A stretch of DNA of 64,000 bases, from positions 15,727,118-15,791,117 of the forward strand of contig CM026431.1 in assembly GCA_014871385.1 (NCBI GenBank), given 5' to 3'. The translations under genes were made by a program, and so were the position numbers. The notes below the pieces were generated by a model. It saw nothing but the letters and a program-made list of their open reading frames with translations, had not been told where the DNA came from and searched no databases. Below are positions 18,894 to 62,918 of this stretch, in pieces. Position 1 is the stretch's first letter. Each line of letters opens with the position of its first letter. The stretch comes from Ceratodon purpureus. Taxonomy: Eukaryota; Streptophyta; Bryopsida; Pseudoditrichales; Ditrichaceae.

Positions 18894-21800
18894 CTACTCC
18901 GAATCCATGTCTTCGTCGGACTCAGCATCTGGATCCTCGTGATCTGTGTCAATGTCGTCTCCTTCAGAGTCATCCTGTTCCAAGTCCTCCACGGTGGCCC
19001 TTCTACGAAGTACAGCCTCAATCTTCGCCAAAGCTTCATCACTGATCTTGTACACTGAAGTTCCCCCCTTCTGCCTGTGTTTCTGGAGTCTCATAGTGAA
19101 CTGACTCGCAACCACCAAGTGCGACAGGATCCTTGTCGGCCCTGGTCCATCCAGCAGAACATAGGAGTTCTGTTTTTTACCCCGTTGGTGGTAATACAAA
19201 CCTTCAACTACTTCGTCCGAACGTTCTACAGTCCCACCCCATCCATCAGTAGTCTGGCCGTCTTCTACGACATACAACTTTCTCGTGCAGATCAGTACAA
19301 AAAAGTGAGCTCCTTGAGAGTGCGGATCCTCAGGGTCGGCCTTGATTGCGAAATGGTCTCCAATTTCTAACGACATGGCGAGGTCGTTGCAGTCTGGCTC
19401 CACCAGCCAGTCCTGCTCCAGATCTTCATCTTCCTGTACAGCATCAGTGGCCTGCGTTGGCTCCAGGGTGACTACTCTCCACGGTGAAACGTGGGCACTG
19501 CTACGGCATTCTCCTCCTGCGCCCCGAACGCACACTGAACAGAAGCAAGAGTAATTCCGAACCTGCAACAGAACATTGTTGGCAGCACCGACACTACGAA
19601 CAGAATGCATGGCTCTACTCCCATCAACAGTCTTGCACGACATGGACTGCTTCCTATTGACCTCAGTTTTTCCAATTAACACGAAGTGGCGTTCCACGAC
19701 CCTTTTAGCGCCAGCGTAGGCAGCATGAGGCCGATCCATGGCTGTCTTGAGGTAGTTGACTACATCCGCGGCGTCTTGCAACCTACGACTCCCAGGGCAA
19801 AGCTGCTCTTTCCGAATACACTGCTTCAAACACGCACCGGCACCGTCATGGGGGCCTTTCCCATGGCCGGTGCCCCAAAAGTGCCAATCTAATGAGCAGC
19901 CATTAGGCAGTTGCTCGCAAACTGTCAGCGACGGGTACCTGCATGGAAGGCTGTATTTCATAAATACATGCAGTGATATAAAGTCATCTTTCAGACATAG
20001 AACACGGAGAATAGCAAAGCTGCAAACAGCAAGGACTAAGCACCAAGAACGAAGCTCTGAACAGCAATCAAGAATAGAACACGAACCAAGCTTCATCACT
20101 AAACCATGACTGAACATCAATGACCATAAACGAAATACCAAGCCGGAAACAGCAATGACTAAACATGAAGAACAGAGCCTAAAAATAAACCATTACTAAG
20201 CAGCACAAACTAAATACAGACCCATTACTAGCCATGACTAAGAACAACATGAAGAAACAGCAATGAACTGAGCTTAAAATTGAACAAGCGAAGGGATTAC
20301 TTGGTCCTTCCAATCCATACTTAAATTGAACACTGATAAAACTGAACAGTAATTTAAATCTAAGCCTGCCGATAAACAATCCACCGTCGAAGCTAAAGGA
20401 AAACAGTCCAATCAGTAAGCACGAAAGGAAAACAGCCATGCAAACTGTAGCAAACAGTAGCTTCGGAACAAAAGAAATTCAGCATTCGATGAACCGGAGT
20501 AAGAGTCATACCTGGCCACAAAAAACCATGCCGTTGACCCCTTGAACTGGGCTGCACAGCCGTCGCTCCAGATGACATGCCTCGAAGGTGTCATCCCTGT
20601 TGCTAACAATCCTCTCCAGTGCAACATTAAACAATGTTGGACAAATAAAGAGTCATGTTTCCTATCATCTGAGACGTAGTAATAGTACGTGGTATTCAAC
20701 CGCCTAGATTTAGGGTCATCTAAATTGAAAGACGGATTTACACTGTACATTATATGAACCAGAATAGTGATCTGAAAATTAAACCAGTGCTCCGATTGAA
20801 TTTCGTTTTGAGCTTTGAAAGAGTAATTTTCTGCATAGTCTATAAGCGACATCACCTCCCCCTCCTGTAGTGTCTCCAGGCACCTCTTGAACTCTGTATC
20901 TTGCCATCTGGCTGTGTGCTGATGGAGAACAAATACGGGCATCTTCAATGCAGCATAGTCCAGAAATTCTCTGGCCCTAGTATGCTTATACTCCAAGCGT
21001 ACGACCCTCTTCGGATCACCCTCCTTGTTCGCACCGGCACTGACTAGCTTGAACCTCCTCCACTCCAACTGAGTTTGATTATCTGCATCGAACTCATTGT
21101 CACACAGGGGAATCAAGTGAAAACCGCATGTGGAACACTCTCCTCTTACACAGTTGAGATTGTGCCAGTCACTTCCCTCGGGCCGTGGGCATAAGCTCTG
21201 CTCCCACAACTCGCTTGTCCTCTTGTAGACGTGCTGCCTCACCTGGCATGCAACAACTCCTGTGGCCTCACCGTCTCCACCTATGTTACAGCACACAGAT
21301 TCGCAACCGCAAGTGCACGTTGCTTCTCCTCCCTGGAAATGAAACTTCGCAGATCTCATGTTATTGAACCCGACGACAATTTCTTGCATCTCCATGTGGT
21401 ACCGACAGCAGCAACTGTTAAAATCCTTGAGGCGCCTCACAAAAAATGGACGCAGTCTCCGGAATGAAATGAAGGAAACTTTGACTTGATCATGCGTTGC
21501 CTTGAAGCTGCTGTAGAAATCAAGCTGAATATACACAGAACAGAATCAGTTACGTATTATGAAGCCTACAACATGCATCAGGTTGTCCTAAACCTATGAT
21601 CCGGAAAGGACCCAAGCCATTCAGGACCGTAGACCTATACACTCAGGAACCACCTCTTCCGGAGCAGGAAAGCAACCAGACATGTCCGGAGAACCGTACA
21701 GACAACAGGAAAAGGACATGGATACAGGAACCAGAGACTTCTGTAAGGGATGAAGACTACTTCTTCAATCACCGTCCTTTCCTGAGCAGGAACCTCTCCA

Positions 21801-23609: not shown

Positions 23610-24590
23610 AGATCAATACCCAAAGCCCGAAACCAAAAATAACAAAATCCATAATAAGGTCAAAACCCATAATGAAGTCAAAAACCCATAACCCATAATG
23701 AAGTCAAAACACATAAACCATTCAAATAAAAATAAAAACATAAAACAAATCCAATTAAATACAAATATAATTTACTTCAGCTACACCATGATTTGAGGAA
23801 TGAATTAAAAATAATAGAACCTACAACCCGTAACCAAAAATAATAAAATTCAAATCCAAAAATACAAATACAATTTACTTACGCTACACCATGATTTGAA
23901 CCACGAATTAAAAATATTAGAACTCATAACCCGTAATCAAAAAATGTTATATTCCACTTTATATTCAAGCTCTATGTTCAATTAAGCTTTATTATTAATT
24001 CCATCTTCTCCTATGTTTAATTCCCTTTCCACGCTATTATAAACCCTTTTTCTTTAATTTGTATTTCTCACTTGTACTTATTCCACATTCCCGTCTCTAC
24101 CGTAAAGGTAATACCCTCGTCCTTTCATTGACTCCGCAAACCCTTTCTAATTTCCAGTATCCTATCCTTTTATTTTTAACAGCCTTTTTATTTTATTTCT
24201 ACATTCTCACTTCCACGTGCCTCTTCTTTTTTAAATACCTTTTCTCTAGCATTTGAATCTTATTTCTTTTAATTTCTATCTCCTTTTATTTCATGTTTAA
24301 TTCAGTTCTTTTCCATTTGTAATACCCTTTTCTTTTGTTCTTATTTTATTGGCTTACATTAATAAATGAAGTCAAATAATAAAATTTATTGGCTTACAGT
24401 AATCAATGAAGTCAAAACCCGTAATCTAGGACCCAAAAATAATAAAACCCATAATCAAGTCGAAACTCATACTGAAGTCAAAACCCATAACCCATAATGA
24501 AGTCAAAGGCCATAATCAAGTCAAAACCCATAACCCATAATGAAGTCAAAACTCATAACCGATAACCAAAGATAATAAAACTCATGATTC
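23610..24590. repeat. AT-rich tract with scattered AACCCATAATGAAGTCAAA repeats
   Basis: Clusters of 'cccataatgaagtcaaaa' occur at about 23650-23720 and again at 24400-24560, separated by T-rich sequence. Two copies of a block with 'aatacaatttacttacgctacaccatgatttgaacc'-type sequence lie at 23770-23800 and 23870-23905. No coding exon. Confidence 0.65.
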
Positions 24591-24619
24591 ATTTCTTACT
24601 TCCATTTATTCCACATTCC

Positions 24620-25250
24620 CTTTTTTATGTACCCTCCCAACCACATTTGAATCTGATTTCTTTTATTTTCTATTTCTTTTTATTTCATTTTTAATTCCCT
24701 TCTTCCCATTTGTAACTAGTACTTCTATCTTTTGTTCTTATCTATTTTTTTATTTTCTTTTATGTACCCTTCCTAATACATTTGAATATAATTTCTTTTA
24801 TTTTCTATTTCTTTTTATTTCATTTTTAATTCCCTTCTTCCCATTTGTAACTAGTACTTCTATCTTTTGTTCTTATCTATTTTTTTATTTTGTTTTATGT
24901 ACCCTTCCTAATACATTTGAATATGATTTCTTTTATTTTCTATTTCTTTTTATTTCATTTTTAATTCCCTTCTTACCCATTTGTAACTAGTACTCCTATC
25001 TTTTCTTCTTATCTTTTTTTTTTATTTTGTTTTATGTACCCTTCCTACTACATTTGAATCTTATTTCTTTTAAATTCTATGTCTTTTTATTTCATTTTTA
25101 ATTCCCTTCTTACCCATTTGTAGTACCGTTTTCTTTTGTTCTCATTTATGTATTTATTTATTTTAGTACCCTTTCTACAACACTTGAATCTTATTTCTTT
25201 TATTATCCATTTCCTTGTCTTTCATTTTTTATTCTTTTCCTTTTATTATT
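24620..25250. repeat. About 135-bp T-rich tandem repeat, five units
   Basis: Units are anchored by TATGTACCCT (last unit AGTACCCT) at 24626, 24761, 24896, 25033 and about 25164. They share 'catttgaat', 'tttcttttattttct' and 'tttcatttttaattccctt' in the same order. Adjacent units 2 and 3 are nearly identical; the outer units are more diverged. Confidence 0.85.
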
Positions 25251-25355
25251 AATTTCCTCTCTTAAATAAAAACATCAAAAAAATCCTTTGCAATACCCAC
25301 ATTATTTATTGGTACATTTAAATAACTCCGAGATTTTCATACCAATGATATTCTA

Positions 25356-27899
25356 CTCCCTCTGTTTCTGAAAGAAATGGTGTTTTCTACAAAGTCTTTG
25401 TTTCACAAAGAAACAATGGTTTCATGTCGTAGCACGGTGGTAACGTATTCAGTTAAATAACCTAAATAACGCGTAACACGCTAAAACCGCGCCAAGTTCG
25501 TTCCCACGAAGAACCTGCGGTTGTAAACACGACTGAGAGAAGAGATAATCTAAAAGAAACACATAAAAATCCCCAAACACAAACCCAAGAAACACCCAAG
25601 GCCACAAAATCTAAGGGATAGAGAAATCCCGGATACTACCTATCACGGAAACTTCCACTATCCAAAGGTGGAAAGTGGAACACTATCTACCCCCAAAGAC
25701 TACAAGAAACATACCTTATCTTAACACAATCTACAGGCCCAGAATTCCGATCCTAGAGCCCATCACTATGTACACAGAAACACCCCAGAAGACCCATCGT
25801 AGTTAGCTACTCTATGACAGCATCTCCGGGATTACTAGTGGAATCTTCACTGCTGCTCCACCTTTCCGTCACCAACCGACTTCCGTACCCGGAATAGTTC
25901 TAGCGGTTTAAGCTAGAATGCTCAAAGAGACTTTGTAGTTATTTCCGGGGATTTCGCCCACTGATTTGTCAGGGTTTTCTCCCTACTTCACGTACTCCTA
26001 CACTAATACTCCCTCCGCCTGGTGTTTCGATGGGGGCAGCCTTCTCGCGGAAAACTGTCCCACTCAAGTCTCGTACCACTCCCCCAGAAGGGGTGGAAAT
26101 GCGGAAATGGGCCACTACCCTCACAACGGGTACAATGCTGTGTTCCGCAGGTCACACAGAGTAGGGCCACGTTTCCACGTTTCCGATGTTGGGGTGGATT
26201 GTGGAAATGGTGAAGCTCAAATCCTTGTACCGAAGTACCCCCTTCGAATCCCCAAGTATCCTCGAGCCGGAGTACACCCTCCGCACCCAAGTCTGGTATC
26301 TGCCACTTCCACTTTCCGCCCTCTCCTCCTTTCCACCCTTAGTGTTCCTCCGTCTAGCACCTTCCGCACAGGGGGTGATACCGAACCGATTAAGCAAGTA
26401 CACCAATCCTAAACAGAGGCGGCTGCTAGCTCACCAAGTACCCCCTTGCATGAGAGCAACGGCTTGAATTAGGGATGTTTTAAAACTTGCTTAATAGAGG
26501 CTCACAGCCCATACTGACCTAACACGGAATACTAGCCTAACTAACCTACACAGCGTTTATGGGGACCGGTGCAAACTCGGAAACAGCAAGAATGGGAAGG
26601 AGGGACCACTCACTTTGCTCATGCACTCAAGAAAACAACTCAAGACAAATGTGGAGTAAAACATAAAGCCTGAATTGAACAAAAGAACACAAACATCGCA
26701 AAATGGTGAGAGAAAACCCCAAGGGTTCTCCCTTTTAAACTACTGAGCCACGGACCGCGTGATCAAAATCACGGGCCACGTGGCAGCAGGCTGACTCTCC
26801 ACTACCCGAAGAGCCAAGGCCCGAAACTAGGAAAAAGACAAAAACAATAAAGTCTAACTAATCTTAACTACCTGCCTCAACAACTTGCACCTAAACCTAA
26901 CTAGAATCCTAAGTACTACCCCTCTTCTTTCGCTCCTTGGCCTCCATCTTCTTCAGCCGCCGCCTTTCCTTGCGGCCCAGCGCCGTCAGTGGAGCAAGTG
27001 GAGTCGCCACCGGCCTAGTCTCGACACGTGTCCCGAGTTCTTCGCCGGACCGACCCACGACCTCCGCATTCTCCGTCACCGAGGGAGTGGTCAACTTGCT
27101 GTCGTGCCCAAGGTCCGCGGCAATTGCGGCACGTGGCCGCCCACCTGGCCCGCCATCCGAAGAAAGTGGCGGCGGTCAACTGACTGCCGTCCGGCTTCCG
27201 CGGGACACGTGGCAGTTCCACCGGTCCACTTTCTGAAAAAGGTGGCGGCGGTTCCCGGGAAACAACCTGGAAGGTTGATGGAGTTAAACCCTAGCCGCCT
27301 TTCCAATATCCCGGTTGAAACCCTAAAAAGGAGAGAGTCGGATCCTGCCTGGTCCGGTTATCAACCTCCCCACTTTCCGCTTTCCTTGTTGATCGTGCTC
27401 CACCATGGCAAAGCTCCTCTACTCCTTGATGCGGCCCACTCTCCCAGTTTCCGCCACTTTTGCCTTGAGATTTCCACCTTTAGGGGAGTTCTAACACAAT
27501 ACTAATTAAGTGTTTTTAACTAATTTAACACTTTTTATTTTTCCTCTATTTCTATTTCTAACATTCTAACCTAATGTCTACAATAACTTCTAACTAACCT
27601 ATAACATCTATCCTATTTACTACTTTTAATCTAAAAACGAAGTCAAAACTAAAATTCACGGAAAGTCGTGACACAACATTTCATCATTACCAGGAAGTCC
27701 ACCGTCAAGAATTTAAAGGAGGAACCTGCCATGAACCTGAAATCAGCAAGGTGACACCAGCTCATTGAATTTCAGAAAGTTTATTTTAATGGCAGCTTAG
27801 CAGGTTGGCAGCTGATGCATTTACAGAGTCAAGGCGGCGTCACTGTACTTAATCCCGGCCTAAAATGGAAAACACCATTTCTTTTAGAAACAGAGGGAG
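25356..27899. mobile_element. Mariner/Stowaway-like MITE, interrupted by an LTR element
   Basis: Left end CTCCCTCTGTTTCTGAAAG... and right end (complement) CTCCCTCTGTTTCTAAAAG... match for about 32 bases with one difference. TA lies outside both ends (25354-25355, 27900-27901). CTCCCTCYG termini with TA target sites are typical of plant mariner-like elements. After removing the inserted element at 25425-27678 the MITE is about 285 bp, normal for this class. Confidence 0.82.
25425..27678. mobile_element. LTR element (solo LTR or LARD-like) nested in the MITE
   Basis: Starts TGTCGTAGCACGG and ends GTCGTGACACAACA (TG...CA), flanked by the 5-bp direct duplication TTTCA at 25420-25424 and 27679-27683, which falls inside the mariner-like MITE. 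It is 2254 bp with higher GC in its centre, and no gag, protease, reverse transcriptase or integrase motif. Frames at 26885-27505 (+) and 25966-26412 (+) have no recognisable domain. I did not find internal direct repeats that would mark two short LTRs, so a long solo LTR is favoured. Orientation is uncertain; the minus-strand end TGTTGTGTCACGAC resembles gypsy LTR starts. Confidence 0.7.
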
Positions 27900-29368: not shown

Positions 29369-32300
29369 TCAATACGCGAAGTTCAACTTGTGAAATCTAA
29401 ATCCTGAGCCTCCTGGAAACATTGACATGGCACCCGACCGTTTACGGGTAAATGTATCATTGAGGAGATCACGGCGACCCGCAAGCAGCTTGACGTCCGT
29501 TGGAATCTCAAACCTCTGCAATCTTCCTTCTTTGGCCATCTGCAAATAGAAAAGTCCAACCGTATAAATATATGTGCAACAACTGCTAGTGTCTTATGAG
29601 TCGGGCAAATTGTGCCGTCGAAACGTAAAGATTGGCGACTAATCAAGAAATTGGGAAATGCTGAACTTGGCTACACCGATGCTTTACTCACCTGGCTCAC
29701 TGAAGCGAGAACCTCCCTGCGTGCCTCAGACTTTGAGCACAAGTCGGCAAAGCTGCTGAAAATGATACCAGATGCCGTAGCCCATTGTTCAAGTGCTGAC
29801 TGGTTGGCCACTACGAGCGCAACATACTTGCCACTGACGGGGTCCAGGTGAAGAATGACATTGTCCACATAAGGACTTCTTACCAGCACGGTCTCCACCT
29901 GCATGGCATTCAAAGTCAACAGTTAGACCGAAAAATCGCCAGATATCGGACAAGAGGGGCAATTTGCAACGTAAGTGCGATATGGCGACACATCAGGGGG
30001 GGACCTGGAGTTTTGAAGAGGTGGAGAGCATTACCTTGCCAAGTGAGCCATATCCACCAGCTTCCAGATTTACAATGTGCATCACGTTGTCTAGCACTTT
30101 CCCATCACCACTTTCCTTCTCCTCTGCATTCAAGCTGGAGAATCGCGAATACAAATCATCTCCACGTTGCCTTAGTATCGTCATCTGGGAGCGCGACATG
30201 GCATCATCGAGGAGATCACGACGACCCGCTAGCAGCTTGACGTCCATTGGAATCTCAAAACTTTGCAATCTTCCTTCTTTCGCCACCTGCCAATCGAAAA
30301 ACGATCGTATGAAGATATGTGAAAAACATGCCGACGTGTCTTATAATCTTGATAGAAATTGTGATAACGAACGAAACTTGCATTTTGTAAGGTTTCTGAT
30401 TGGCGATTCAAAAAATCGGAAATGCTTGAGCACCTTGATTTCACCGATGAATTACTCACCTTCCTCACTGAAGCGAGTACCTCCTTGCGTGCTTCTGGCT
30501 TTGAGCACAAGTCACCAAAGCTGCTGAAACTGATACCAGATGTCTTAGCCCACTGTTCAAGTGCAGCCTGGTTGACCACTGCGAGCGCAGCACACTGGCC
30601 ATTGATGGGGTCCAGGTGTAGCATGACATTGTCCACGTAAGGGCTTCTTACCAGCACGGCCTCCACCTGCAGGACAGCCAGATTCAAGAATCAGCCCAGA
30701 CAAGTCGTGATTAGACGTGCAAGGAAGACAACTTACAACGTCAGTGCAACATGGAGACAAATCGGGTAGGTCTGGAGTTTTAGATAGGTGGAGAGCAATA
30801 CCTTTCCAAGCGAGGAATATTCATCGGCTTCATGGTTTTCAAAATGCAGCACGTTGTCCAGTACACTCCCGTCATCGCTCTCCTTCTCCTCGTCATTCAA
30901 ATTGGAGAATCGCGAATACAAAATGTCTGAACGCTGCTTCAATTTCTTCATCTGGATTAGCACCATTATAGCATTGAGGAGATCACGGCGACCCGCTAGC
31001 AGCTTGACGTCCATTGGGATCTCAAACCTTTGCAATTTTCCTTCTCTCGCCACCTACCAGTCAAGAAACCAACCATACATAAAGATATGCGCAACAAATG
31101 CCAGATGTGTCATGCGAAACTCGTACAAATTGTGCCGGCGAAACGAAACGCGCATTTTTGAAGGCTTGTCATTGGCGACACCATAACTCGGAAAATGCTC
31201 AATCTGAAAGCACCGATGCTTTACTCACCTGAGTCACTGAATGGAGAACCTCCTTGCGTGCCTCCGGATTTGAACATAAGTCGGCAAAGCTAAGGTATTT
31301 GATACCAGATTTCTTAGCCCATTGTTCAAGTGCAGCCTGTTTGGTTACTATGAGCGCAGCACACTGACCATTGATAGGGTCCAGGTGAAGCATGATATTG
31401 TCCACATAAGGACTTCTTGCCAGCACGGCCTCCACCTGTAGGGCATTCAAAATCAAGAATCAGCCCAGACAAGTCACCAGCCATTGTATGAGGGAGCCAA
31501 CATGGATATACATCAGGTGGGTATGGAGTTTTGAAGACTCAGTGGAGCGCAATACCTTTCCAAGCGAGCCATATGCACCAGCTTCGAAATTTTCAATATC
31601 CAGCACGTTTTCCAGCACATTCACGTCATTACTTTCCTTCTCCTGCCCGGTCAAGTTGGAGAATCGCGAAAACAAATTGTCTGTACGCTGCTTCAATGTT
31701 GTCATCTGAGTAAGCACCACTGTCGCATTGAGGAGGTCACGGCGACCTGTTAGCAGTTTAATGTCCGTTGGGATCTCAAAACTTTGCAAATTCTCTTCTC
31801 TCGCCACCTGCCATTCAAAAAACCAAACCATATGTGAAGATAAGTGCTATTGCCAGATGTGTCTTGAGACGTACCTATTGTGACGACAAGATGTAACGAG
31901 CATTTTGAAAGAATTATGATTGGCATCAGCATAAGCAAGGAAACCCTGACTTGGTTGCACCGATGCTTTACTCACCTCGCTCACTGAACGGAGGACCTCC
32001 TTGCGTACTTCTGACTTTGAGCACAAGTCAGCAAAACTGTGGTAATTGACACTAGCTGCCTTAGCCCATTGTTCAAGTGCAGCCTGGTTGACCACTACGA
32101 GCGCAGCACAATGGCCGTTGATGGGGTCCAGGTGAAGCATAACGTTGTCCACATAAGGACTTCTTGTCAGCACGGCCTCTACCTGCAGGGCATTTAGAAT
32201 CAAGAATCAGCCCAGATAAGTCACCAGACAACGTACGAGGAGCGAATTTGCAACGTAAAAGCGTTATAAACGCCCATCTGTTGAGTCAGGAGTTTTGAAT

Positions 32301-35123
32301 AGGTGGAGAGCAATACCCTGCCAATCGAGGAATATTCACCAGCTTCCAGGTTTTCAAAATGAAGCACTCTGTCAAGCACATTCCCTTCATCACTTTCCTT
32401 CTCCTCTGCATTCAAGTTCGAAAATCGCGAATACATTTCGTCTGCACGCTGCTTATATTTCGTCATCTGGTAAAGCCTCACGATAGCATTGAGGAGATCA
32501 CGGCGACCCGCTACCAGCTTGACATCCATTGGGATCTCAAACCTTTGCAAATTTCCTTCTCTCGCCACCTGCCAATTGAAAAACTTAACCGTATGAAGAT
32601 ACGTGAATAACACGCAAAATGTATCTTGCGAAACTCGCATATACTGTGCCGGCGAAACGTAATGACTGGGAACTCAATAACTCGGGAAATACTCAAGTTA
32701 CTTTCACCGACGCTTTACTCACCTGGGTCACTGAATGGAGGACCTCCCTGCGTGCCTCCATCTTTGAGCACAGGTCGGCAAAGCTATTGAAACTGATACC
32801 AGTTGTCCTAGCCCATTGTTCAAGTGCAGCCTGGTTGACTACTACGAGCGCAACACATTGGCCATGGACGGGGTCCAGGTGAAGAATGACATTGTCCACG
32901 TAAGGGCTTCTTACCAGCACGGCCTCCACCTGCAGGGCATTCACAATCAAGACTTAGACCGGAAAGTCGCCGGACATCGTTCAAAAGAGACAATTTCAAA
33001 CGTAGGTGCGTTCTGAGGACTCATCAGGTAGAGAGCAATACCTTTCCAAGCGTGGAATATTCACTAGATTCCAGGTTTTCAATGTGCAGCAGGCTGTCCA
33101 GCACGTGGTCCAGCACGTCATCACTTTCCCTCTCCTGCACCGTCAATTTGGAGTATCGCGAGTAAAACTCGTCTATACGTTGCTTGAGTTTAGTTATCTG
33201 GTTCAGCACTAAAGCATTGATGTGACCATGGGGGTGTAGCGTGATCGCGAGGGCAGGTCGAGTGTATGAGTCATCATTGTCTTCAATGACATTCTCTATC
33301 CATCTGAAGCATATCAATGAACAGTTAGTATTCACTTACAGCAGTGCACGCACATCTAGTATTGCCTTGAAACCCCAACCTAGTACTTCATATTTCATAC
33401 AGCACGGGGTTGTTTTATTCTATTGCAGAGAATACAAACCACTGAGAAAGATCTGCATCAAATAAGCCCCTTTTGAAAATCATGTAGACAAGATCATGCT
33501 CGGAACATGGAAGCAGTACTTACTTTCCGGTGGGAACTTGAACCAGGACTTTTACTGGCACTTGTTTTATCACAGGTACTCTTATCTCCACATCTTCGTC
33601 CACCTTACTAACCCGAGGAATCTTGACCATTGTGCTTCGCCTTACATACTCAATTACAGGCTCCTTATAGGTATGGTTACGCTGTTCCTTGTGTATCCTG
33701 GAAACCCCAGTACAGACATCATTTGAGATTTAAACTCGGCATCTCACAAGTTGCGAGGGCCGTAATCTAATATAAACTGAGAAATGAACGGAAGAATATG
33801 ATAATCTGCGCTTACCTGTAGACTTTGATTTTCTTCATCTTTTTCACCTCCTTGATGACGGGCACCTTTACAATCTCCTCCACATCCACCATGACAACTC
33901 TGTTTTTGGTCACCAAGGTGAGGCGCTCCTCATAAAACAACTTGGGGACCATGGTTGTCTCCTGGACATATTTTACCTCAGGAGTTTTCTGGTAAATTCT
34001 AATCTTGCTCTTGTAGTTCTTGGCCTGCACCAGAACATTAATCATATCCGACCCTTCGCATTAGTACTTTTCCATCAGAGACGTTTACATGAACAACTGC
34101 TCCACATGTTCAACCAAGAAAGTGGAAATCATTCGCATAATGTTCACTTACAAAGTGCAGGTGCTGGTGCTGGTGTTGAGAGCTCTGAATGGTTTCGATG
34201 GCTTTAGCATTATCATCGACCATCGTGACACAAAGGTCGCACTTGCACCCGTGACCGTGAAGGTTCTCATAGTCGATCTGCTGAAGTGCTCCGGTGCTTG
34301 TAACGATTTGGTGCTCGATGTTGTGATGTAATGATCCGGTGCTGTGAACGCCTTCATTATAATTGTAAGCACCGTTGTGGAGTAGGGATCCGGTGACGTA
34401 AACGCCGTCATTGAAACGGGGGCCCTCAGTGATGTAGCGTCCGGTGTTGATTTGCTGTAGGGATCCGGAGTTGATATGCTGTAATGATCCGGTGCTCTGT
34501 TGTAGTGATCCGGTGCTGTAAACGCCTCCGGTGCTATAAGCGCCTCCGGTGCTGTAAACGCCTCCGGTGTTGTAAACGCCTCCGGTGTTGTAAACGCCTC
34601 CGGTGTTGTAAACGCCTCCAACATTGTAATAGGGATCAATGTTCTGCTGCAGTGATCCGGTGCTATAAATGCCTTCATTGTAATAGGGCTCAAAGTTCTG
34701 CTGTAGCGATCCGGTGCTGTAAACGCCGTCATTGTAACTTTGCTCATTGAGCAGTGATCCGGTGCTCTGCTGTCGTGATCCGGGGCTGTAAGTTACGCCA
34801 TCGTTGAAATGAGACATAAGATTGCGCTGTAGTGTCGATCCGGTACTCTGACCGCCTTCAGCTTGATGATGTACACCATTGCCGCCGTCTGATCCATAAT
34901 GGTCCACATCGTTGTGGCCATTGCCATTTGAGCCATTCACTGCTGAGTTGAGAACGACATTCGACACACCTTGGGAAGACTTGGACTCCAAGCTGCCTAA
35001 ACTTTCGTGTCCTTCCTTTGTTGAGATGAATCTGGTATCCGTCGACAGCGGCGTTGTTGCCGTCGTGGCTAAAACTGGGGACATCTTTGGCGCGGCACCA
35101 GTGGCCATATCATCTATCTGCAT
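29369..35123 (-). CDS. Filament-like protein with five acyl-CoA-synthetase C-terminal repeats
   Basis: My model has 14 exons and 1276 residues with no lesion. Exon 1 (35123-34152) is a low-complexity head with STGSLQQ and GVYNTGG repeats. Exons 2-3 (34024-33816, 33697-33524) are Val/Pro/charged segments such as EIVKVPVIKEVKK and EIRVPVIKQVPVKV, like articulin or alveolin repeats. Exon 4 is 33303-33042. Then 207-nt and 252-nt exons alternate: 32929-32723, 32568-32317, 32182-31976, 31807-31556, 31435-31229, 31053-30802, 30666-30460, 30286-30035, 29898-29692, and a last exon 29539-29369. Each 153-residue pair (residues about 540-1276) follows the C-terminal domain of long-chain acyl-CoA synthetases: VEAVLVRSPYVDNV, LEQWAK, FADLCSKPEARKEVL, AREGNLQRFEIPMDVK, GRRDLL, then a LYSR tail. 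The family's LLTPTxKxKR catalytic segment is altered and no N-domain is present, so enzyme activity is unlikely. A structural scaffold is my inference. Confidence 0.85.
29692..32929 (-). repeat. Genomic tandem array of the synthetase-lid module
   Basis: The repeat unit comprises a 207-nt exon, an intron, a 252-nt exon and an intron. Unit starts are 32929, 32182, 31435, 30666 and 29898, giving periods of 747, 747, 769 and 768 bp. Introns are also recognisably alike, for example a shared 'ttgtgccggcgaaacg' stretch in several of them. All intron phases in the array are 0, so whole units can be added or removed without breaking the frame. The fifth unit has the 207-nt exon and a shortened final exon with the stop. 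Confidence 0.88.
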
Positions 35124-37970: not shown

Positions 37971-39574
37971 TCATGGTATAATAGAAGGAAGCGGGTTCAT
38001 TTTCGTGGTGGCTTCCAATTTCGAATGCCTCGAATCGTTATCGTCGTAGCTGGCATGACTAAATGAAGGCGAATTAACACCCGACATCTGTCGATGAGGA
38101 CTGTTCGCAATGGCGTCGGTGAAGTTGCCAGGATCTTCATACTCTTCAATCAGTTTATCACTGTGTCTGCAAAAAATTCAAGTCCACATTGAAGCAGTTA
38201 AAAATTTGTTACCAATAAACTTTACCAAGACCTGCTGCAAGACGAAGAATGAACTCGAATTCGTGCTTGACTAGTGAGAGATTTGCATGTCTTACTTTCC
38301 GGTAAACACTTTCTTCATCCTCGTCACTGGCACTTCCCTCACAACAGGAACCCGGATTATCTCTTCAATGTCTTCGGCTACAAACCTGGGCTCCTGCCTA
38401 GTCACGGAAACTTCTTCATATGCAAGCACTTGCTCCATTACCGGAACCTCGCTCTCCTCCTCTAGCACACTGCAAATTCATCACCAGATCAGAAAGTGAT
38501 TAAATCAGAAGCACTCCAAAAAGTTCGGATATTTTCAGATAGAAACTCTATAATACGTGAATTGCTGGGGTTGCCTGGGGTTAGACGGGTCATTACTGGT
38601 AGTAAACCTCCGGTTTCGACTTGGTTATGTACTTCACCTCAGCCACAAGCTCAATATGCTCCACTTCATCATAATGAATCACAGCTTTGGGCTCCGGGAC
38701 AAGCCGTGTCTCCCAAGAAACCTTCGGTTTGTAACGCGTCTCCTCCTCCACTTTCATCTCAGGCACCTTCTCGAAGACCTTCCAGCGGGTCTCATACTGC
38801 TTCGGCTGTTGAACACAGATCACATGCTCATTGAAGGTGATTCATGGCGCAAACGTTTTGCAATGCATTGGTCCCAAACCAAATTCAATGACGCAAATTT
38901 TCCCTGCCGCAATGATTACTTACCAGTTCTTCTTCGTTATGGCTGGCGATGTAGGAAGATCCCATTGACGTGAGCTCATAGTTTACCGATTTTTGTCTCT
39001 CGAACTCAATCTGTTGGTCCAACTGCGATTGCGCGACAATGATCGCCTGTTTCGCAGCAGATATCGCCTGCAATCCCGACGTCTGATGGCCGAACGACGC
39101 AGAATGAAATCCCTGCAGTCCCGTCGTCTGATGGCCGAACGACGCACCAGAGATCCCCTGCAGTCCCGTCGTCTGATGGCCCAACGACGAGACAGAGATC
39201 CCCTGCAGTCCCGACGTCTGATGACCCAACGACGCAGCAGAGATCCCCTGCAGTCCCGACGTCTGATGGCCCAACGACGCAGCAGAGATCCCCTGCAGTC
39301 CCGACGCCTGACCGCTCAAATATGCAGACTGCTGTTGGCCTGATGACGCCGCCGATAACGTCTGTTGGCCGGAATATATCTCCCGGCCCTGATTACCAAG
39401 ACTTGTCACAAAGCCACCAGAGGAATACGGCCGAGTCACGAAGCCATTGCCGGAGTACGGCCTAGTCACAAAGCCGTTGCCGGTATACGCACTAGTAACC
39501 TCTGGATGCAAGGACTGGGAACCACCATAGATATGTGACTCAATCTCAGGCGAGGAAGCAACAGCTGCCGCCAT
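37971..39574 (-). CDS. Filament-like Val/Pro/charged-repeat protein, paralogue of the neighbour
   Basis: Four exons: 39574-38924, 38805-38597, 38469-38296, 38166-37971; 409 residues. Exon 1 has GNGFVTRPYS repeats and about six copies of a 14-residue unit like SGLQGISAASLGHQ (residues about 75-165), then a short helical Gln/Glu-rich part. Exons 2 and 3 encode EVKYITKSKPEVYY, VEHIELVAEV, EEIIRVPVVREVPVTRMKK and similar Val/Pro/charged segments, which recall articulins and alveolins. Exons 2 and 3 are 209 and 174 nt, the same as in the neighbouring gene, with the same phases. The exon-3 ends FTGK and PTGK also match. The C-terminus is a short acidic-Ser tail instead of the synthetase repeats. 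The two genes are therefore tandem paralogues. Function is unknown; a cytoskeletal or membrane-skeleton role is inferred from the repeats only. Confidence 0.8.
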
Positions 39575-39594
39575 GACTGCTCACGACAGCCTAA

Positions 39595-60063: not shown

Positions 60064-62918
60064 ATGGCAGCGTTGCAGTATTTGGAGCGGCAGAGGGCAG
60101 CCCAGCCGGAGCTCGCGGAGTGGTACACCAGCATGGCGGATCTGTACGAGCGCAAGCTCTGGCATCAGCTCACGCTGAAGCTCGACCAGTTCGTGGCGCT
60201 CACTGTGTTCCAGGTATGCGATTGCATGTCGGTTGATGATAATGTTCGCAATCTGCCCATGTGCAGACGCTTGTTTTTGTTCTCCAGGGATTGGTCTTCC
60301 TTAGGGTTCTGTTTCCTGGTTGCTTTCAGTGATCGGTAGTGTTTTGCATTCGGGTGTTTTGGTTCTAGGTTTGATGGTTGGATGATTCTTTCAGGGTTGT
60401 GTGTGTGTGTGTGTATTGGTTCCGGGGTGATTGGGTTTGTGGTAGGTGTGTGTGATCAGGGAGTGTTTTTTTGTTATGCTGGATTTTAGGGTTTTGGTGA
60501 TGAGGGGTTGATGTGGTGGATTTGCAGGCGGGTGATGCGCTCGTGCAGCTGTACCACAACTTCATTTGCGACTTTGAGACGAAGATCAATCTGTTGAAGC
60601 TTGCCCATTTTGCGGTTATTGTATCGAAGCAGTACCCGGAGAAGGAGGCTGCGATTGCGTATCTGGAGGATGTGATTGAGAAGCTTAGGGCGTCCGGGGA
60701 GAGGCGGGTGGAAGAGCCAATTTTGTACGTGAAAATGCAGGTTGCGTCGTTGAAGTTACAGCGTGGGGAGCAGCAGGAGTGTAAGAAATTGCTAGAGGAA
60801 GGGAAGACGACGTTGGATAGTATGACAGATGTGGACCCCTCGGTTCATGCAAGTGTACATTGGGTCTCTTCACAGTACTTTAAGTCTCGACAAGATTTTG
60901 CCGAGTTTTACAAGAGTGCTCTGCTCTACTTGGCTTATACGTCGGTGGAGACTTTGACTGACGACTTCAAGCTGGTTAGTCTTTTTTTCGCTTCTGATCG
61001 TTTGAGCAGTTTAGGAAATGGTGGTTCTGTTCGCTGTTGCTAATTTGGATACTACCTATCGGTCACTCTGCTTGTTGGCTTCACTGAGACTTTACTGCTG
61101 TTTAGTCCTAGCTTCAGTTCATTATGCTTTCCTCGTGTTGTTGAGAATTGCATAAGAGTGATGTTCCGAAAGTGCCCGTTCTGATGACTTGGATTGGCAC
61201 CAGACTATGCCAAAATGTATCACTAACATTATGCGGTTTGTTCAGTCTGGGTTTGACGTCTTGAATTTGAAATGAAGGACGTAGTAGATATTCTTTATGA
61301 ATTAGAGGAATCTTAGGGTCATGTTGTCTCAATAGGCCTGAGTCAGTACTCGTGGCTGGTAGCATTTCAGATTCTCGTGGCACTCACTTCAGATTAACAA
61401 TAAGATATTGTGGCGCAGGATCTAGCGTTTGATCTTTCACTGGCAGCCTTGTTGGGCGACAATATCTATAACTTTGGAGAGCTTCTTGCGCACCCAATTG
61501 TAACTTCTTTATCAATCTCTTCACCTCCCTTTGGTATTTTGGACAATATTCATTTTTATTTATTTTTTGTAACGTGCCATGTGATAGTTGCACTACCCAG
61601 TTTTCTTCTTTTCTGTAGTGCGTTTTGGCAAGTGCTACGTTGTGACCACGAGGCTTGACATCCAACTCAATCATGTAATTTTTTGGGTACGGACTCCCGA
61701 GATTGTATAGTAGTAATGTATACGCCACGTAGACTTGTTCTCATCGTAAACTGTTCTATGATTTTGCAGGTTAAGAGTCTGTTGGGAACAAGTGTAGAAT
61801 GGTTGTATTTTATCTTGCAAGCTTTCAATGCCGGAGATTTGACCAAATATCAAGAGCTTTGTGGTCAATATCAGTCTGCCCTAACCAAGCAACCTGCACT
61901 TGTTGAGAACGAGAAAAAACTATGGGAAAAGATTAATATCCTATGCCTCATGGAGCTGATTTTCAGGTAATTATTCTTCGTTTTTTTTTTCGAGATTAGT
62001 AGTGAGCTGGTGAGCAGAGTGCTTTTAGTATTGATTGTAGTGATCCATGCAAGAGTATGAAAAGAATTAAATGTCGCAAAGAAACCGAGTAAGATATAGA
62101 GGTCTTGATTACCATGAGTCAATCAACAATATATTCCTTGCATGGACTCGCATGATGCACGCTATGGAGCTCAAGGCTTGAGAATTAAGCTATTTTTTTT
62201 TAGTGAGCTGGAATCTCTAATCGCTAGGTTGCTAATTTAACAATCCATGTCAAAATGTTTCTTCTTTACTTCAATTGTCTGACTCATTTCTGTCTTGGCT
62301 TATTTAAACCTCTTTGAGGAGAATCTTGTAGATCCACACATGATGGATTACTTGTTAATGATTTATTCTTATTCCTAGTTGACTGAGGTTGGGCGAATTG
62401 TCTCTACAGCCGCCCATCAGAAGAAAGGACCATTCAACTCAGTTTAATTGCAGAGAAGACAAAGCTGTCAATGGATGAAGTGGAGCACCTTTTGATCAAG
62501 AGCCTCTCCGTATGTATCTAACTTCATCTTCATGATGCGAACTTCTGATTGTTATCTGAGAATGCAAGGAATCTTTCTAGGTTCTTCTGGTTTTTGTAAT
62601 TGCTAGTAGACAGGTTCATACTTTTTTGCACGTTGAATAAAGTCTTCGCTCTGAAGTGATCTTGAATTAGATGTATTATTTGAAACCTCACTAAAGTAAC
62701 GGAGACTTTTGCTCATTCATGTGATTTTGCAGGTACATCTGATAGAGGGAGTTATCGACCAAGTAGATGGTACCGTTAGAGTGTCATGGGTGCAGCCACG
62801 AGTTTTGGGAATTCCACAGATCACTGCATTGAAAGACAGGCTGGACAATTGGCTACAGAAAGTGCATACAACTTTGTTAGCTGTCGAAGCAGAAACCCCT
62901 GACCTAGTAGCTGTTTAA
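60064..62918 (+). CDS. RPN9: 26S proteasome regulatory subunit RPN9 (PSMD13)
   Basis: Six exons: 60064-60213, 60528-60974, 61419-61499, 61770-61966, 62410-62509, 62733-62918; 386 residues, the plant family's usual length. The protein follows plant RPN9 throughout: WHQLTLKLDQFVALTVFQ, YHNFICDFETKINLLKLAHF, KKLLEEGKTTLDSMTDVDPS, SLAALLGDNIYNFGELLAHP, the PCI winged-helix region (ERTIQLSLIAEKTKLSMDEV, VHLIEGVIDQVDGTVRVSWV, QPRVLGIPQI) and a C-terminal helix. RPN9 is a PCI-domain subunit of the proteasome lid, helping to assemble the regulatory particle that feeds ubiquitinated proteins to the 20S core. All splice sites are GT-AG and frames are intact. The start at 60064 is the first ATG after the GA-rich leader. 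Confidence 0.97.

Follow-up and report, generated by a model that had tools for sequence, protein, structure and literature searches.

The 64,000-nucleotide (nt) stretch of Ceratodon purpureus DNA analysed here, called the window (contig CM026431.1, positions 15,727,118–15,791,117, forward strand), carries on its minus strand at 35123–29369 what is best explained as an intact chimeric gene. Exons for the C-terminal lid domain of a long-chain acyl-coenzyme A (acyl-CoA) synthetase appear to have been captured into an alveolin-like gene and multiplied there, the lids acting as non-catalytic spacer or binding modules; a probability of roughly 0.6 is given to this reading as a whole. A piece of a metabolic enzyme has thus probably become a repeated building block. 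The gene for a filament-like protein would have taken up the last exons of a fatty-acid-activating enzyme at the DNA level, minus the catalytic core, and tandem multiplication of the captured unit would have produced five full copies and one partial copy. The reading frame continues past the old end of the enzyme into the hinge segment that follows, each unit spanning the C-terminal lid domain. In the predicted protein, a head of low complexity leads into a filament-type segment rich in Val and Pro, to which the lids are strung in series.

The gene model, as read from the sequence, has 14 exons that splice to a single frame of 3,831 nt, encoding 1,276 residues and a terminal stop. All 13 introns are GT-AG, of 112–220 nt, and the phases are compatible throughout, which bears out the continuous set of exons described in the initial annotation. 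After the head (exon 1) come two Val/Pro-rich exons (2, 3) and the junction exon (4), followed by a pair of exons, A and B, present five times. The A exons are 207 nt in all five copies and the B exons 252 nt in the four full copies, the last B exon (exon 14) being 171 nt including the stop. Five modules of 153 residues had been proposed; this size holds for modules 1 to 4, the fifth has 125 residues because exon 14 ends differently, and exon 4 holds a partial sixth copy. The introns between module copies differ in length (112–136 and 152–175 nt), with 73–84% identity from copy to copy over aligned columns. Protein identity among the copies is 67–80% for the five A exons and 63–79% for the four full B exons.

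Synthetase origin of the repeated modules

The genome from which the window comes (362 Mb, 151 contigs) was searched with module 4, giving 17 matches, 11 of them within the chimeric gene. The best two outside it both cover exon A and lie at C5 (66% identity, expectation value (E) = 8e-24) and C9 (54%, E = 2e-17). Each of the two loci is an acyl-CoA synthetase gene in which frames for the adenylation core lie upstream, and their 3' parts, joined by eye, exceed the Pfam cut-off for AMP-binding; we take them to be of the LACS8/9 type. The C5 synthetase gene is adjoined by what is presumably a lectin-receptor-kinase-like gene. Weaker matches were found on C4 (8.74 Mb, E = 8e-4), C8 (E = 0.003) and C2 (E = 6.7).

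A homologous C-terminal lid domain of long-chain acyl-CoA synthetase (ANL superfamily) is present, represented by exon A and the start of exon B. Against C5, the first 20 residues of exon B are identical at 11–14 positions (0 of 1000 shuffles in all five modules), and the remainder is weakly similar (48, 2, 188, 17 and 169 per 1000 shuffles for modules 1 to 5). The earlier identification of the modules with the synthetase C-terminal domain is therefore firm for exon A and these 20 residues, the rest of exon B showing only weak similarity. The stretches RSPYVDN, LEQWA and FEIP are invariant across the five modules. A profile of the five modules reaches the carboxylic acid reductase structure 6oz1 with a full-sequence E of 0.00076, the aligned part running from the hinge as far as the FEIP region, and a 246-residue piece of the C9 synthetase matches carboxylic acid reductase structures over its full length (E = 2e-25). 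Pfam AMP-binding_C (PF13193) finds four of the five modules at E <= 1 (best E 0.013), under its gathering cut-off (24.5 bits), below which the genuine synthetases also fall (15.9 and 13.4 bits). Weak matches of single pieces to the Cdc6 winged-helix, IQUB (two of five modules, E 0.0056) and CYK3 Ig-like domains in Pfam, and to a thiolase in the PDB (E 0.038), were taken as chance.

The modules use the same splice sites as the C5 gene. Each of the 10 module introns also aligns to the corresponding C5 intron (z 6.9–12.6, 0 of 200 simple shuffles each), whereas the C9 introns, used as a control, give no clear alignment (z -1.6 to 1.6), and the C9 synthetase was accordingly ruled out as donor. Because the C5 introns align, the DNA captured was intron-bearing and came from the C5 gene or from a lost duplicate of it. 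The C5 coding end, TACTCATGA, stands opposite TCGCGA in exons 6, 8, 10 and 12 and in exon 4, so that CGA stands where C5 has the stop TGA; the stop may have mutated or been removed at a duplication joint. The spacer residues after the former stop align to the C5 hinge exon (0, 0, 11 and 0 per 500 shuffles); an origin in the C5 3' untranslated region fits less well (50, 8, 267 and 5 per 500 shuffles) and was rejected. The repeat unit is therefore hinge tail, exon A and exon B.

In unrooted trees the two synthetases split from all five modules, with ultrafast bootstrap values of 100 when introns are included and 93 for exons only, and it is on this split that a single capture is proposed. Support for any particular order of module duplication is low (41–64). 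Synonymous divergence (dS), rough here since the exons are short, is 0.82–1.09 when the A exons of the modules are compared with C5, similar to the 0.92 and 0.90 found for exons 2 and 3 against their counterparts in L040, a paralogue of the acceptor half on C4; among the modules it is 0.20–0.59. The simplest order would be duplication first, capture then or later, and amplification last.

The alveolin-like gene and its relatives

At least 12 alveolin-like loci, including the chimeric gene, were found with a query of exons 2–4 and a second query: C1 has three, C4 three plus two, and C10 and C11 a pair each, mostly clustered. Exons 2 and 3 of L040 equal those of the chimeric gene in length (209 and 174 nt). 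Introns 1, 2 and 3 align to those of L040 (z 8.0, 5.2 and 3.9, 0 of 500 shuffles each), and the sequence preceding the start codon can likewise be aligned (z 5.8, 0 of 500 shuffles). L040 terminates in a Pro/Lys-rich tail, and the 3' part of exon 4 of the chimeric gene clearly matches the B exons (scores 133–164).

These alignments also bear on whether two adjacent genes, an alveolin-like one (exons 1–3) and a separate lid-repeat gene, have been misjoined in the model. In favour of misjoining, no clear parent is seen for the beginning of exon 4. Exons 3 and 4 nevertheless share a phase, intron 3 matches its counterpart in L040, and exon 4 terminates in lid sequence with a synthetase-type splice site. 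A search with the tails of L040 and L034 turned up no terminal exon in the stretch from exon 3 to the lids, the best match in the window (E = 0.15) lying in the neighbouring gene. Misjoining is very improbable, and the single gene assumed at the outset stands in the model.

The medial alveolin-like segment (127 residues) contains 28.3% Val plus Ile, 34.6% charged residues, 0.8% Gly and 0.8% Ala, which fit the epiplastin profile given in the accessible part of PMC6212826. A genome-wide search with the Pfam IMCp domain (PF12314) gave nothing over the cut-off, with two hits at E 4.9 on another contig; a Caulobacter control was found. The gene is named alveolin-like rather than alveolin because its composition fits partly and IMCp is seen only below threshold elsewhere in the genome. 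Of the earlier assignment, the composition and the VPV motifs are retained, and a Pfam match over the cut-off is missing from the genome.

Coordinates of the chimeric gene and its neighbour are collected in Table 1. The neighbouring alveolin-like gene has a head of GHQTSGLQGIS repeats. C4 has a comparable gene pair, likewise ordered, at about 15.452–15.458 Mb, which suggests that the C4 pair and the window pair represent a duplicated segment.

Table 1. Parts of the chimeric gene and the adjacent gene, in window coordinates
Feature	Position	Strand	Remarks
Exon 1, head of 324 residues with STGSLQQ/VYNTGG repeats and HGHGCKCDLC motif	34152..35123	-	start region and upstream DNA align to C4 paralogue L040
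Exon 2, first alveolin-like Val/Pro/charged exon	33816..34024	-	209 nt, same as L040
Exon 3, second alveolin-like exon	33524..33697	-	174 nt, same as L040
Exon 4, junction; 3' part is a partial lid B exon copy ending in hinge tail	33042..33303	-	
Lid module 1	32317..32929	-	exon 5 32929-32723, exon 6 32568-32317
Lid module 2	31556..32182	-	exon 7 32182-31976, exon 8 31807-31556
Lid module 3	30802..31435	-	exon 9 31435-31229, exon 10 31053-30802
Lid module 4	30035..30666	-	exon 11 30666-30460, exon 12 30286-30035
Lid module 5, divergent C-terminal end	29369..29898	-	exon 13 29898-29692, exon 14 29539-29369 with stop
Neighbouring alveolin-like gene without lids	37974..39577	-	head 39577-~38888; open frames 38841-38596, 38477-38295, 38177-37974

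Elsewhere in the window, a 135-bp tandem array of 4.6 copies lies at 24623–25234, within strong GC skew (-0.41 at 24001–26000). On the minus strand, an open frame of 377 codons at 20415–21545 looks by eye like part of a transposable element. A plus-strand open frame at 60504–61040 resembles a proteasome regulatory subunit, judged by eye.

Constraint, catalysis and the role of the lids

Several observations weigh against the proposed interpretation. The ratio of nonsynonymous to synonymous divergence (dN/dS) from module to module is only moderately below 1 (0.30–0.83), and differences among the modules are more frequent at second than at first codon positions (third 266, second 194, first 159). 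The last third of the lid is strongly diverged and barely recognisable, and the best stretch of the five-module profile on 6oz1 taken alone has E = 0.098. On the acceptor side, IMCp gives no match in the window gene or in three paralogues, and the first ~27 residues of exon 4 show no significant alignment to the last exon of L040 (45 of 500 shuffles). The medial segment has a net charge of +14 and four acid-base dyads per 127 residues, both off the epiplastin profile in the accessible part of PMC6212826, as is its 6.3% Thr. The corresponding segments of the three paralogues have net charges of -6, -6 and -1, with 10, 9 and 6 dyads. The predicted structure of exon A (68 residues, mean predicted local distance difference test score 78) found no PDB match at E <= 0.001; this was listed on the same side, and being a weak test of half a domain with six aligned rows it counts neither way.

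Invariant exon lengths and dN/dS values below 1 are signs of constraint on the modules, which is judged weak, relaxed or mixed with change because dN/dS is only moderately below 1 and second positions differ more than first. The capture could therefore be real and its product without function, the gene being a chimeric pseudogene or a rarely expressed by-product. The upper end of the dN/dS range and the divergence of the lids' last third would fit this, as would the lack of another copy of the head, residues 28–324 of which return only the head itself in a genome search at E <= 0.01. Set against it are a 3.8-kb model free of stops and frameshifts, GT-AG ends retained in every intron, and A exons and full B exons that hold their lengths while the intervening introns vary. 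When random substitutions were simulated on the consensus in a simple model, at 10% divergence, five stop-free units of 153 codons had a chance of ~0.0003, the actual fifth unit being shorter than the one simulated. Unchanging exon lengths and frames that stay open speak against decay, and a pseudogene is considered unlikely.

Six pieces of the C5 adenylation core, compared with the window, found nothing convincing; the best match (E = 0.07) was the hinge tail in exon 6. The AMP-binding N-terminal domain is thus missing, as first proposed, and since there is no adenylation core the reaction of the enzyme is excluded on sequence grounds. It is the missing core that carries the argument for a non-catalytic role. 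Within the lids, all five modules have Asn in place of the hinge lysine (K528 in the aligned 5msp), and the position of the hinge Asp keeps Asp in four. The residue aligned by MAFFT to K629 of 5msp, which we take to be the catalytic lysine of the C-domain, is R, V, V, S and T in modules 1 to 5. Over 48 pairwise settings, K appears at this position in modules 2 and 3 under 9 of the 48, and under none in modules 1, 4 and 5. The PWTPES loop is four residues shorter in the module alignment.

The lids might still retain the enzyme's ligand or partner role, through weak binding of acyl-CoA or adenosine monophosphate or through docking on the core domain of the acyl-CoA synthetase present in the cell, and so tether or regulate that enzyme at a cortical skeleton. 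The three invariant stretches and the hinge Asp would fit such a role; the change of the hinge lysine to Asn, the shortened loop and the loss of the catalytic lysine (three modules at all 48 settings, two at 39 of 48) speak against it, and it is thought quite unlikely. In view of the same replacements, the link to lipid or CoA metabolites suggested in the initial annotation is not supported as far as binding of the enzyme's kind is concerned.

The sequence itself shows the gene model, the source of both halves, the lack of the core and signs of constraint. Most likely the lids serve a filament-type protein as folded units without catalysis, either as spacers or for binding. If expressed and folded, they would form a repeated tail that spaces or binds other proteins, on a protein predicted to lie at the cell cortex and to form filaments there. 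A radial-spoke gene is present in the genome, which makes flagellated sperm plausible. More tentatively, this may be a flagellate land plant with a multigene family of alveolin-type membrane-skeleton proteins, one member of which has recruited an acyl-CoA synthetase lid domain as a non-catalytic module repeated five-fold, possibly so that the enzyme that activates lipids, or the membrane it belongs to, is kept in place in sperm or at the cortex of the cell; this wider picture is doubtful.

Comparison with known systems

We know of no case in which a synthetase lid domain has been reused as a repeated unit without its enzyme. The birth of this new gene is unusually legible, since a single genome still displays the donor, the family of the acceptor, the introns that were captured, the junction exon and the amplification that followed. 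With 12 or more alveolin-like loci indicated for a land plant, it becomes directly testable whether such plants build a skeleton of this kind at the cortex. In the open-licence literature, nothing was found on alveolin in Marchantia or articulin in streptophytes, and the papers found that mention both alveolin and acyl-CoA synthetase concern apicomplexan parasites. Gene refashioning in a moss, as described in the accessible part of PMC5908804, is unrelated to lid capture.

The chimeric protein resembles alveolins, articulins and epiplastins, as characterised in the accessible part of Goodenough et al. 2018 (PMC6212826), in a medial segment with 28% Val plus Ile, 35% charged residues and almost no Gly or Ala, in its VPV motifs and in its low-complexity head. 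It differs from them in having no IMCp match, a positive net charge, few dyads, a plant host and an enzyme-lid tail. According to the same part of that source, none were recovered with IMCp in algae of the red and green groups. Carboxylic acid reductases (6oz1, 5msp, 5msc) are the nearest solved structures by sequence for the C9 C-terminal part, and weakly so for the modules; unlike the chimera, they are full bacterial enzymes. The likeness to plant long-chain acyl-CoA synthetases, as represented by the C5 and C9 genes, lies in the exon boundaries, in exon A (66% and 54% identity), in the first 20 residues of exon B and, for C5, in the introns. The chimera departs from these enzymes in lacking the adenylation domain, in the diverged last third of its lids, in its five tandem copies and in the synthetase catalytic lysine, which three modules have lost and the remaining two have probably lost as well.

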